Of a DNA stretch of 64,000 nucleotides, positions 34,865 to 59,699 are shown piece after piece (the stretch's first letter is position 1; every line of letters begins with the position of its first letter). This stretch comes from Arbacia lixula. Its lineage: Eukaryota > Echinodermata > Echinoidea > Arbacioida > Arbaciidae. Location of the stretch: the NCBI GenBank assembly GCA_963669155.1, contig OZ022595.1, positions 4,190,642 to 4,254,641 of the forward strand, written 5' to 3'. The notes under the pieces are model-generated. The model ran no database searches. It had not been told where the DNA came from and worked only from the letters and a program-made list of their open reading frames with translations. The position numbers were made by a program, and so were the translations under genes.

Positions 34865-34964
34865 GTCAAAATCCCCCCTACCCCCAGTCAAAACCTGCTC
34901 TTAAAAAGAGCAATCAGAATAGGGTTATGCCTTTACCACATGCAAAAAAATATTGCACATTCGA

Positions 34965-35515
34965 GATAAATATGTGGTTCTAATAAAAATTAAGAAAAAT
35001 GAAAATAAACTCTAGATTTCAATGTCAATCGCTTTTGAGCCCCAAACACTTATAGATCATCTGAAGCGGAATCTATTTTACTTTTTGAAAATACCATTAT
35101 TTTTCAACCTCTCCTTGTAGTAGGGTCAGGATCCAGCAAAATATCAACCATGTTCAAATCCAAAATGCGTGAGATATGACGAAGTTGTGAACGATCCTAA
35201 CCAGCCAATTATAGTCCACGATAATAACGAAATGCCACCGGCGATTCAAGGGTCGCGGACTATGATTGGCTGGTTAGGATCGCTCACAACTTCGTCATGT
35301 CTCATGCAGTTTTTATTTGGACATGGTGTATATTTTGCTGGATCCTGACCCTTCTACAAGGAGAGATTGAAAAAAATGGTATGTTCACAAAGTACAATAG
35401 ATTCCGATTCAGATGATCTATAAGTGTTTGGGGCTCAAAAGCGTTTGACATTGAAATATAGAGTTTTTCTTTTCATTTTCTTTATTTAAATAGAACCACA
35501 TATTTATCTCGAATT
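34965..35515. mobile_element. Large foldback element, arms about 250 bp
   Basis: Left arm 34965-35222 and right arm 35258-35515 are inverted copies: ataaatatgtggttcta with its complement tagaaccacatatttat, gagccccaaacacttataga with its complement, and gatcctaaccagccaat against attggctggttaggatc near the middle. The centre of about 35 bases is cgaaatgccaccggcg. No coding. The arm text gggtcaggatccagcaaa recurs at 35890 and 36095. Confidence 0.75.
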
Positions 35516-35739
35516 TGCAATATTTTTCTGCCTGTTTGAATTGAATGTTTTTTCATACTTGGTAAACTTCGACCTCCAACATACAGGTGCAAAAGAAAGT
35601 GTACAAAAATATGGTTTATTCATGGAGATATCGCAGTTTGAAAGGGAGACCTTTTTCGTGGTTCGAGTGGTCAAGTGAAGGTCACGACTACCGAGCTGAA
35701 AATAAAATCGCGTGTTTTCTGCTGCCTGCGGACGAATAT

Positions 35740-39333: not shown

Positions 39334-39983
39334 CACATTAAAGGTCCCTTGTCATCAAAATGTATATCGATATGTTGATGCAACATAATATGTGCATAAC
39401 AAAATCACTACCTGTTCAATGGAAATATGTGTCCTATATTTGAAAATAATTTTTCTTTATTTTTTCTCAGCACTGATAAGCCCCGCCTCCAAAATATCCT
39501 CCAGCTCAAGATTCCCCCTGTGACATCATCAAAGGTAGAATTTAGCAGGATAATAAGCAGAATTTATGCACAAACTAAACTTTGCAATGACTACCTCCAC
39601 CTGCTCTCAAGAGCATCACATGTCTTCACACAATACCATCTAGCAACCTTTCATGTGGGAATAATCGTTTCTTATGTCAGAAATGTGCTAGCTGTGTGAT
39701 GCTCTTATAAGCACTTGCAGGTAGTCATTGCAATGTTTATTTTGTGCATAAATTATGTCCATTATCCTGCTAATTTCTACCTTTGATGATGTCACAGGGG
39801 GAATCTCGAGTTGGAGGATATTTTGGAGGCGGGGCTTATCAATGCTGAGAAAAAATATAGATAAATTATTATAAAATATAGGAAACATATTTCCATTGAA
39901 CAGTTAGTGATTTTGTCATATACATATTAAGTTGTATCAACAGACGTCCACATATATTTTGATGACAGGGGCCCTTTAATGTG
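39334..39983. mobile_element. Long-TIR MITE with cacattaaagg ends
   Basis: Termini cacattaaaggtcccttgtc and gacaggggccctttaatgtg are inverted, and inverted arms of about 270 bases follow (aagccccgcctccaaaatat against atattttggaggcggggctt; cctgtgacatcatcaaaggt against acctttgatgatgtcacagg). The centre is about 100 bases with agagcatcaca words. There is a TTAA at each end (39338-39341 and 39976-39979), which would suit a piggyBac-like target, but this is unproven. Non-coding. Confidence 0.7.
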
Positions 39984-55300: not shown

Positions 55301-55806
55301 AAATCTGCCATTTTGTGTTAACGCTGATTGTGATATGAAATAAAGAATTTCCTGTCCGAATAATAGGTTCTTTCCTGGTAATGCAAATAAAAATAATAAT
55401 GGCACTTCGAGGTGAATTGTACAATATATGTCATGGCTGAGTAATTCAAACATGTAACCGCTAAGGTAACCCCTATACCTACATTTTGTAAGTAAAAGAT
55501 CACCATAGCGCATAGTTTGAACGACTTGAATAGAATATGAATACATCACGAAAATGGTGTATTGCCAGGAGCTTGTTTTCGGCTTAAGAACGTCACAAGG
55601 ATTTTATCATTGTTCATGGGTAAATGGCAGTGGCGTATCACGGTATTGGTGTTGGTATATGTATACGCATCACGGTATTGGTGTTGGTATATGTTGGTGA
55701 CAGAAAGATGGTGGAAGGGGGTCGTGGTATCATTGACTAGTGGAGGTGTTGGTATGTGTGTTTGCGATCGGAGTGTGAATGGTGGTGATGGAGGTATCAT
55801 TGTTTT
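52342..55806. other. Intergenic region, mostly AT-rich, with a LINE remnant
   Basis: No gene is supported. A LINE 3' coding remnant lies at 53436-53712 and a MITE scrap near 55510. 54290-54360 includes a small hairpin (gatgtgtgtatcacacatc). Other open frames are short and lack domains. Confidence 0.45.
53436..53712 (-). mobile_element. LINE remnant: C-terminal zinc-knuckle region of reverse transcriptase
   Basis: The minus-strand frame reads SAAIRSDRMCANYRMFKIKL, ALSKFRYMSHRLPVNKDRFD and CPLCTSIDFGDEFHDIFVCP. The CxxC, then GDEFH, then CP pattern is the conserved end of many animal non-LTR reverse-transcriptase proteins. The rest of the element is absent. Confidence 0.6.
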
Positions 55807-56660
55807 AAGGTGGTGTTGGTATGCGTATTTGTGATCGAAGAGTGAATAGAGTGGGTGGCGGTGGTATCATTGATTAGCCCTTTCATAACCAGGACATGAA
55901 AACCCATTGGCTTACTACACATATTCATGCCAATGGTAACGAGACTGTTAAGGTGGTGTTGGTATGTGTGTTTGTGATCTGAGGGTGAATAGAGGGGATG
56001 GTATCATTGATTAGCCCTTTCATAACCAGGACATGAAAACCCATTGGCTTACTACACATATTCATGCCAATGGTAACGAGACTGTTAAGGTGGTGTTGGT
56101 ATGTGTGTTTGTGATCGGAGGGTGAATAGAGGGGATGGTATCATTGATTAGCCCTTTCATAACCAGGACATGAAAACCCATTGGCTTACTACACATACTC
56201 ATGCCAATGGTAACGAGACTGTTAAGGTGGTGTTGGTATGCGTATTTGGGATCGGAGGGTGAATAGAGGGGGTGACGGTGGTATCATTGATTAGCCGTTT
56301 TATAACCAGGACATGAAAGCCCATTGGCTTACTACACATATTCATGCCAATGGTAATGAGAGTGTTAAGGTGGTGTTGGTATGTGTGTTTGTGATCGGAG
56401 GGTGAATAGAGGGGGTGACGGTGGTATCATTGATTAGCCGTTTTATAACCAGGACATGAAAGCCCATTGGCTTACTACACATATTCATGCCAATGGTGAG
56501 TGTTAAGGTGGTGTTGTATGTGTGTTTGTGATCGGAGGGTGAATAGAGGGGATGGTATCATTGATTAGCCCTTTCATAACCAGGACATGAAAACCCATTG
56601 GCTTACTACACATTTTCATGCCAATGGTAATGAGAGAGTTAAGGTGGTGTTGGTATCTAT
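55807..56660. repeat. Minisatellite, about six units of 136-143 bp
   Basis: Units begin aaggtggtgttggtat at 55807, 55950, 56087, 56224, 56367, 56505 and 56641. Each holds gtgatcggagggtgaataga, gtatcattgattagcc, ataaccaggacatgaaa, cccattggcttactacacat and catgccaatggtaa. A gtgttggtatatg-rich lead-in starts at 55630. The last part of the unit also occurs singly at 4685-4790. Confidence 0.85.
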
Positions 56661-57179
56661 GTTTGTGATCGGAGTGGGGTAGTGGGGTATTATTGTTAGG
56701 TGGCCTGTCGTAGCCGAGAGATCGCCTTCTAATTTCGTTATTCTCTGCCCCCTCCCCCGCCATTTGCCTGTGTTATCTTTATGTCAACATTGCGCGTGTC
56801 ATGTTTTACCAGATTTTCATGAAATATACATCTTTAATGTTAACCTGTCAACATGTGTTTCTCAAGGTAATTGATAACCATGACGTCATGAACAAGCAAT
56901 TAAATGAAAATCAATTACTTGATTAATTAATTACAATTAATTAATCAATTAACATCTCTGAAATGGATCACATTTTTTTCTCATGAAATTTGGCATGAGT
57001 AGGTTAAAAGATAAGAAAAGACGGTTGTCTAACCCGCTGTATCCCCTGCCTCACTGTTGGTGCAGTGAAGAGGAGTAGCCAGAATTGGTCTGTTAGCTTT
57101 GTGGTTCGTAGTTCCAACTCGGGCAGGGAATAGCCAACGCAAAACCACCGACATGTATTTAACTAAGCCAGTACTTAGT

Positions 57180-58807: not shown

Positions 58808-58855
<48 letters not shown>

Positions 58856-58885
58856 AAGAATAGAGGATGCGATGGCGCTGATTAC
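57739..58885. other. AT-rich stretch with microsatellites
   Basis: Probably LINE 3' UTR and flanking DNA, with no gene. TA/GA microsatellites lie at 58457-58515 and a TA run at 58808-58853 directly before the large palindrome. Confidence 0.5.
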
Positions 58886-59663
58886 TAGGTGAAGACAAAC
58901 AAATTAAATGAAACGCCGGAGAAGAAAAATTATTCGAATTTTCGGTCATAGACCTTTATCAAGAATGAATGACTGAACAATTTACACAAAAACATGATTG
59001 CGTACAACGAGCGTATTTTAAACTGAAACTAGGGGCGCTTATTACATATTGTTACGTAGTACAAGATAGGCGTAAAACTAGGTAAACCAAATATAGAGTA
59101 AAATCCACATATCGACATGATGTAAAGTTCCTGCACAAAAAAAGTGAAAATAATAAATCAAAATTAGGCGGTAGACTCATTAGGGATCCTGCAAAAAACA
59201 ATCACAAGTAGTTACGTAAAGTTGCATATACTACATTACAGTAAACAAAATCCACTGGCCGACATTAGGTAAAATTTTACCTAATGTCGGCCAGTGGATT
59301 TTGTTTACTGTAATGTAGTATATGCAACCTTACGTAACTACTTGTGATTGTTTTTTGCAGGATCCCTAATGAGTCTACCGCCTAATTTTGATTTATTATT
59401 TTCACTTTTTTTGTGCAGGAACTTTACATCATGTCGATATGTGGATTTTACTCTATATTTGGTTTACCTAGTTTTACGCCTATCTTGTACTACGTAACAA
59501 TATGTAATAAGCGCCCCTAGTTTCAGTTTAAAATACGCTCGTTGTACGCAATCATGTTTTTGTGTAAATTGTTCAGTCATTCATTCTTGATAAAGGTCTA
59601 TGACCGAAAATTCGAATAATTTTTCTTCTCCGGCGTTTCATTTAATTTGTTTGTCTTCACCTA
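58886..59663. repeat. 778-bp near-perfect palindrome (389-bp arms, no spacer)
   Basis: The arms 58886-59274 and 59275-59663 are reverse complements with a single mismatch noticed (gtaaAgttgc at about 59218 against gcaacCttac on the other side) and no gap. The centre is ggtaaaattttacc. Both outer edges run into TA-rich simple sequence. Each arm's outer part carries gataaaggtctatgaccgaa, then aattcgaa, a word resembling the 3' non-coding region of Penelope-like elements, so the arms may come from such an element. Transcribed, it would form a very stable hairpin. It could also be an assembly artefact. Confidence 0.9.
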
Positions 59664-59699
59664 TATATATATATATATATATATGTAAACCATGTTGTG

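Follow-up and report, generated by a model that had tools for sequence, protein, structure and literature searches.

A spacerless 778-bp palindrome in Arbacia lixula as a truncated Penelope-like element insertion, with a possible route to palindromes of its family

The palindrome and its flanks

A palindrome of 778 bp lies at positions 58886-59663 of the window, by which we mean the whole 64-kb stretch of DNA analyzed here, located at C20:4190642-4254641. Its two arms (58886-59274 and 59275-59663, 389 nt each) meet with a spacer of 0 nt, and their comparison reveals a sole non-complementary pair, A at 59220 and C at 59329; the preliminary description, which had reported a nearly perfect palindrome without spacer and with one differing position, was right in both its coordinates and its account of the structure. 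Each arm is the outward-facing 3' end of a Penelope-like element (PLE), on the minus strand in the left arm and on the plus strand in the right arm. The arms join at the word AATT (59273-59276), which is common to both of them and forms a self-complementary 4-nt overlap with no spacer (family sequence GGTAAAATTCC; palindrome GGTAAAATTTTACC). With family positions (R) counted on copy L009, both arms reach R392.

On the left side, a 33-nt sequence at 58853-58885 (minus strand; sense GTAATCAGCGCCATCGCATCCTCTATTCTTCTT), the PLE tail, is located between the arm and a 40-nt pure TA run (58814-58853), the first A of the tail being ambiguous with this run. On the right side, a 22-nt pure TA run (59662-59683) adjoins the arm directly. 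Hence, the earlier statement that TA repeats touch both edges applies to the right edge but not to the left, where the tail had been missed. The tail was found at the left end only, and other copies carry the identical sequence at one end; we refer to the tail side as the A end and to the no-tail side as the B end. A 32-nt word from the outer end has two occurrences with opposite orientation in the 64-kb window, compared with 0 of 100 shuffles. The palindrome is a genuine insertion of two mirror copies of a PLE 3' end, joined 5'-to-5' within TA repeats.

Elsewhere in the window, two more self-inverted stretches were observed at 39334-39983 (83% over 657 columns) and 34938-35535 (86% over 605), which are perhaps older fold-back elements of other families, as well as a tandem array at 55805-56674 with a 137-bp unit in about 6 copies.

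Coding copies, forms and targets of the family

The window arm has at least 48 matches in the 607-Mb genome, the window's own two included (40 of 731 candidates scored). Long copies have the arm sequence as their 3' end and contain long open frames, which measured from stop to stop comprise 953 aa in L009, 749 aa on each strand of L010, 902 and 964 aa in L011, and 432 aa in L014. A YIDDFIG motif is visible in long-copy frames. Two frames, that of L009 and the 964-aa frame of L011, were scanned with Pfam, and in both of them RVT_1 was detected at 30.4 bits (cut-off 29.6) together with GIY-YIG at 22.3 bits, just under its cut-off of 22.6 (E 1.6e-4), the latter being C-terminal and in the same frame as the reverse transcriptase (RT). 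The presence of RT and GIY-YIG in one frame is the mark of endonuclease-bearing (EN+) PLEs. We consider the identity of the window element as a PLE to be nearly certain, and the previous suggestion of head-to-head Penelope-like ends at TA repeats is borne out by arms that match the 3' ends of copies with RT and GIY-YIG-like frames. The window copy itself does not code for protein and represents a truncated EN+ PLE inserted in a (TA)n microsatellite; no PLE protein remnants were found in the 64-kb window (best E 1.5), and a comparison of the L009 frame with solved structures gave no match at E 0.01. No description of this PLE family was found in the open-licence literature, and the insertion is of a known kind.

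Among 19 element rows, both outer ends (TAGGTGAAGACAAACAAATTAA and its mirror) are intact in 11, while some end is altered, missing or masked in the other 8. One outer end is preceded by the tail (AAGAAGAATAGAGGATGCGATGGCGCTGATTAC), which has 31-33 nt in this family (a tail of about 30-40 nt is a trait of EN+ PLEs), and the other is directly adjoined by repeats, mostly TA. Nearly spacerless palindromes are also present in other lengths, including 5831 bp (L010), 2474 bp (L013), 1778 bp (L012), 933 bp (L017) and down to 84 bp (L043). Additional forms include long arms with a spacer (L009 and L014), a single truncated arm (L032), tandem copies (L011 and L037) and partial fold-backs of 63 nt (L018), 32 nt (L033) and, by eye, about 20 nt (L025); a less sure partial fold-back, 85% alike and adjoining a GA repeat, was seen in L042. 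Two-ended copies have the inverted arrangement, so that together with the tandem copies the direct or inverted pLTR arrangement of EN+ PLEs is present.

The outline of inverted arms flanked by TA would also fit a DNA transposon or MITE that has long terminal inverted repeats and duplicates its TA target, and transposon families that target TA microsatellites exist, such as the Mutator-like MuTAnT of Medicago, which is alike in sitting inside these repeats (PMC4486113). However, MuTAnT elements are described there as DNA transposons, and no such coding sequence was present in the L009 and L011 frames scanned here, both of which hold RT and a GIY-YIG-like domain. Moreover, the arm length in our family is not fixed (28 nt to over 3000), an extra tail is found at one end, and L032 consists of a single truncated arm. 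A TIR DNA transposon or MITE, characterized by set-length inverted repeats and a transposase, was therefore rejected, and we regard such an origin as extremely improbable.

An assembly or library artefact in the form of a fold-back chimera was considered as well, since perfect palindromes are a known artefact form and N stretches occur in some loci (L018, L030, L035, L040 and L044). Against it, palindromes of diverse lengths (down to 84 bp) bounded by the element's own ends are found at many places, and some of them have diverged arms, which makes an artefact very improbable. The same recurrence, as read from the assembly sequence alone, disfavours the option of an assembly join raised in the preliminary description, which would be an unlikely origin of the window palindrome. 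Within larger copies, arm-versus-arm substitutions range from 0 to about 2.5% (higher with indels), implying that the palindromes are not all newborn; the proposal that the window palindrome is very young or maintained was thus too narrow, considering that the arms of some other palindromic copies are 2-3% apart. Over the first 389 nt, 13 arm pairs from 11 loci show 0-3 substitutions between arms. When compared with the first arm's nearest other copy, the arms are mutually closer in 7 of the 11 loci, equal in 2 and farther in 2, so a single-RNA origin may not hold for every locus.

The flanks that were read are mostly (TA)n, consistent with the AT-rich target trait of EN+ PLEs, with exceptions including L020 in (CTAT)n, L027, whose tail is next to GA repeats, and L044 and L055, which lack a TA run on the tail side. 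Away from elements, TA runs of at least 16 nt are scarce: nine loci with about 65 kb in total contain 2 of them, and the remainder of the window has 5 at three places. This indicates a strong association between the element and (TA)n, and it is likely that the TA runs predate the insertions. A repeat with a tRNA-like start (SINE-like by eye; L016, 2110-2310), which has at least 43 genome matches, also flanks PLE insertions at L015, L044, L048, L054 and L060, suggesting that its AT-rich parts may serve as targets. Several PLE insertions are located side by side in L017 (390-1973) and L018 (453-3223), those in L017 being unequally diverged. Three same-orientation no-tail ends with 824 bp spacing at G000:C3:28914630-28916308 are probably a tandem array containing the element.

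Outer ends, arm lengths and short arms

A word consisting of the tail's inner 6 nt and the arm's first 25 nt had 278 genome matches with up to 3 mismatches, and the no-tail end next to TA had 130, compared with 0 for the control in each case. For pairing, we took 100 of the 278 tail ends and 98 of the 130 no-tail ends (two of 100 listed no-tail rows were dropped as tail-end variants, GATTTC) and searched for convergent ends within 9 kb. Among the matches listed, 35 convergent pairs were identified, namely 33 A-B, 2 A-A and 0 B-B (P 1.7e-8 versus random pairing), where A-A pairs are under-detected because the tail list is incomplete (100/278). The exact-match ends, which are complete (70 tail and 37 no-tail), gave 22 A-B pairs, 1 A-A pair (L064) and 0 B-B pairs (P 2.7e-6). 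The tail is thus single-ended in 33 of the 35 listed convergent pairs; of the two A-A pairs, L064 reads as two neighbouring insertions and L047 is tailed at both ends. Among the listed ends, those left without a partner number 38 of the 70 exact tail ends, 25 of the 30 tail ends with one mismatch and 65 of the 98 no-tail ends, and no-tail ends outside TA runs are missed because the B-end search word includes TATATA.

Arm lengths, which were taken from BLAST ends (the A-arm value of L009 being given by construction because this copy is the reference), agree within 50 nt in 23 of the 33 A-B pairs, compared with a shuffled mean of 8.7 and 0 of 100,000 shuffles. Total lengths of these matched pairs range from 84 to 5831 bp. 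With a limit of 10%, 14 A-B pairs agree (2.2 shuffled), and among 12 pairs with an arm of at least 300 nt, 5 match (0.9 shuffled, P 0.001). When a match was defined as within 15 nt or 10%, it was found in 8 of 15 pairs with both arms longer than 100 nt (shuffled mean 1.07; 0 of 200,000) and in 8 of 20 whose longer arm exceeds 100 nt (shuffled mean 1.45; 5 of 200,000). Four loci outside the 33 pairs (L015, L016, L018 and L020) entered one arm-length test as extras. L011, L025 and L059 are complex, and the L011 pair uses the tail at its tandem junction. In the 23 symmetric pairs, the tail arm is longer in 11, the no-tail arm in 8, and both are equal in 4. In the equal pairs (L045, L054, L061 and the window), the words at or next to the centre are, by eye, fully or almost self-complementary. 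The 19 symmetric pairs with unequal arms have junctions of several types, namely 9 overlaps of 1-3 nt, 1 plain join, 4 with 1-2 extra nt, and 5 with a spacer of 7 to 384 nt (L053, L055, L056, L060 and L062). In addition, short matched arms surround simple-repeat centres in L062 (132-515; CT-rich, 384 nt) and L053 (128-198; AAT-rich, 71 nt), which looks like capture or expansion of repeat DNA, and in L059 (175-263) the tail, the 5' leader and the start of the element's ORF are found at the palindrome centre, as would result from a template jump.

Both sets of observations bear on how the palindromes were made. In simple self-priming, a strand begun at one start site would fold back and serve as its own template up to its end, without a further initiation. 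Near-symmetric arms, small loops and partial fold-backs agree with this explanation, which resembles what has been proposed for rotifer PLEs with an antisense template (PMC3846280). However, it predicts like outer ends, while the ends are A-B in 33 of the 35 listed pairs and in 22 of 23 pairs among exact ends; in those 8 of the 19 unequal symmetric pairs in which the no-tail arm is longer, the tail end would not be its copy. Self-priming of this kind seems unlikely. Independent twin priming, in which two cDNAs begun on both cut strands would each be randomly truncated and then end-joined, explains the A-B ends as well as asymmetric copies such as L021 (81/1414), L026 (133/2180) and L063 (1575/181). 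Yet arm lengths are matched far beyond the shuffled expectation, including arms longer than 100 nt, and we likewise find this explanation doubtful. The asymmetric pairs (10 of 33) do need plain end joining, and twin priming may be the maker of this minority. Host fold-back repair or replication template switching might also have made palindromes from ordinary truncated insertions, and host-made fold-back inverted duplications have been described in yeast (PMC7467729 and PMC11724301). Such a host origin does not account for the regular occurrence of site B at the second outer end, and appears quite improbable.

Short arms may have an additional source of symmetry. The sense strand contains TCATTC at 59581-59586 (plus strand; mirror at 58963-58968, minus strand), which is similar to the initiator consensus TCAKTY and whose A falls at R81, making 59583 a possible RNA start. 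Among 75 arm ends that were entered by hand (a subset of all seen), 40 are located up to R110, of which 8 are at R80-83 and 4 of those at R81. When words along the unit were counted with up to 3 mismatches, the numbers decreased from 621 (R15-40) and 428 (R47-72) to 194 (R73-98) and 167 (R111-136), which is consistent with stops in that zone; divergence may differ between the words. Judging from these positions in the sequence, the short-arm ends may be read as run-off at the RNA 5' end, and because short arms share stops (near R81, R40-98), run-off may explain some of the symmetry of this class.

Hammerhead ribozyme motifs are a trait of EN+ PLEs. A degenerate hammerhead-ribozyme-like word (CUUGAUAA-A-GGUC-UAU-GACC-GAAA-AUUCGAAU-A) was noticed at 59586-59618 (plus strand; mirror at 58931-58963, minus strand) as a weak candidate, and the word GGTCTATGACCGAA highlighted in the preliminary description lies inside this fold. 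A loose hammerhead expression (degenerate core and stem II) has 3 matches in the 3590-nt unit, this word being one of them, and the fold of the region has a z of -1.38, with 17 of 200 shuffles equally good. Rfam searches of six loci gave no match at the gathering score; around the arm, they returned 8 sub-threshold matches at E up to 1 (including bglG and miRNA hairpin families, which reflect the palindromic structure) and ten at E up to 10, with 0 hammerheads in either. Based on the Rfam results and the fold z, a hammerhead ribozyme in the arm appears doubtful. Run-off at a hammerhead cut (R45) is disfavoured as well: R44-46 accounts for 5 of the 40 short ends, but the highest density over 4 nt, with 8 ends, is found at R80-83, which is more in keeping with a transcription start.

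Two start sites, fold-back and known systems

One-site fold-back of one strand predicts identical outer ends, and independent truncation predicts unrelated arm lengths. Considering that neither is mostly seen, initiation on two strands at two sites, followed by fold-back or pairing of the cDNAs, could account for both features. In such a model, the element's enzyme would cut both target strands, and each target 3' end would prime reverse transcription of the element RNA, with the tail site (A) used by one and site B, 31-33 nt upstream, by the other. One growing cDNA would then be copied after folding back or after base pairing with its partner through a self-complementary word, and the product would anneal to the cDNA begun at the other site and thereby close the insertion as a palindrome. 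For the window copy, pairing of cDNA ends fits better, because its AATT centre has zero loop and a one-strand hairpin needs a loop.

Several published observations on PLEs are related to this model. A purified PLE protein was able to cleave and extend both strands, with initiation at two neighbouring sites that delimit the tail (PMC11167929), and self-priming has been inferred for rotifer PLEs from junction palindromes (PMC3846280). In vitro, however, the start site showed no difference between strands (PMC11167929), which counts against the proposed mechanism, as does L047 with its tail at both ends. The combination of one start site per strand with fold-back was not found in the accessible portions of the open-licence literature. 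Overall, a truncated PLE insertion made by two-site initiation and fold-back is our best explanation, with a probability of roughly 60%; for the mechanism of two sites plus fold-back taken by itself, we see the chances as even. More tentatively, and somewhat short of an even chance, fold-back of nascent cDNA could be common, perhaps the standard way of closure, with each start site used once, one per cut strand, in which case PLE integration would yield palindromes normally and not by accident.

For PLEs, earlier publications have already described inverted pLTRs, junction palindromes, tails and AT-rich targets. Poseidon of Anolis carolinensis (PAc), from the Penelope/Poseidon clade, is similar to the present family in having RT and C-terminal GIY-YIG (here a GIY-YIG-like domain just under the Pfam cut-off) in one frame, a tail between two adjacent RT start sites, and AT-rich targets (PMC11167929). 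PAc contains a hammerhead ribozyme that cleaves once protein is added, whereas our family has only a degenerate word, and the accessible text of that study does not report one start site per strand, which is proposed here (PMC11167929). Penelope families of Adineta vaga are alike in their head-to-head inverted pLTRs, palindromes at the inverted junction, a 31-bp tail on one inverted pLTR and simple AT-rich targets (PMC3846280). According to the portion of that report at hand, the rotifer copies contain an ORF, ORF parts or captured DNA between pLTRs, and some have 8-10-bp target duplications, whereas many copies in the window family are bare palindromes and a duplication is unreadable in (TA)n (PMC3846280).

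The single-tail rule and the matched arms bear on how PLEs integrate, a process whose later steps, beyond cutting and extension, still await validation according to the available text of the 2024 in vitro work (PMC11167929). The family also carries a warning that a palindrome without spacer in an assembly can be a true product of a retroelement, and that it can be taken erroneously for a TIR transposon or MITE. Because this genome contains hundreds of the family's ends, and many of them belong to simple palindromes with readable junctions, the family represents a data set for testing integration models, and it gives an unusually clear family-wide record of how palindromes may arise.
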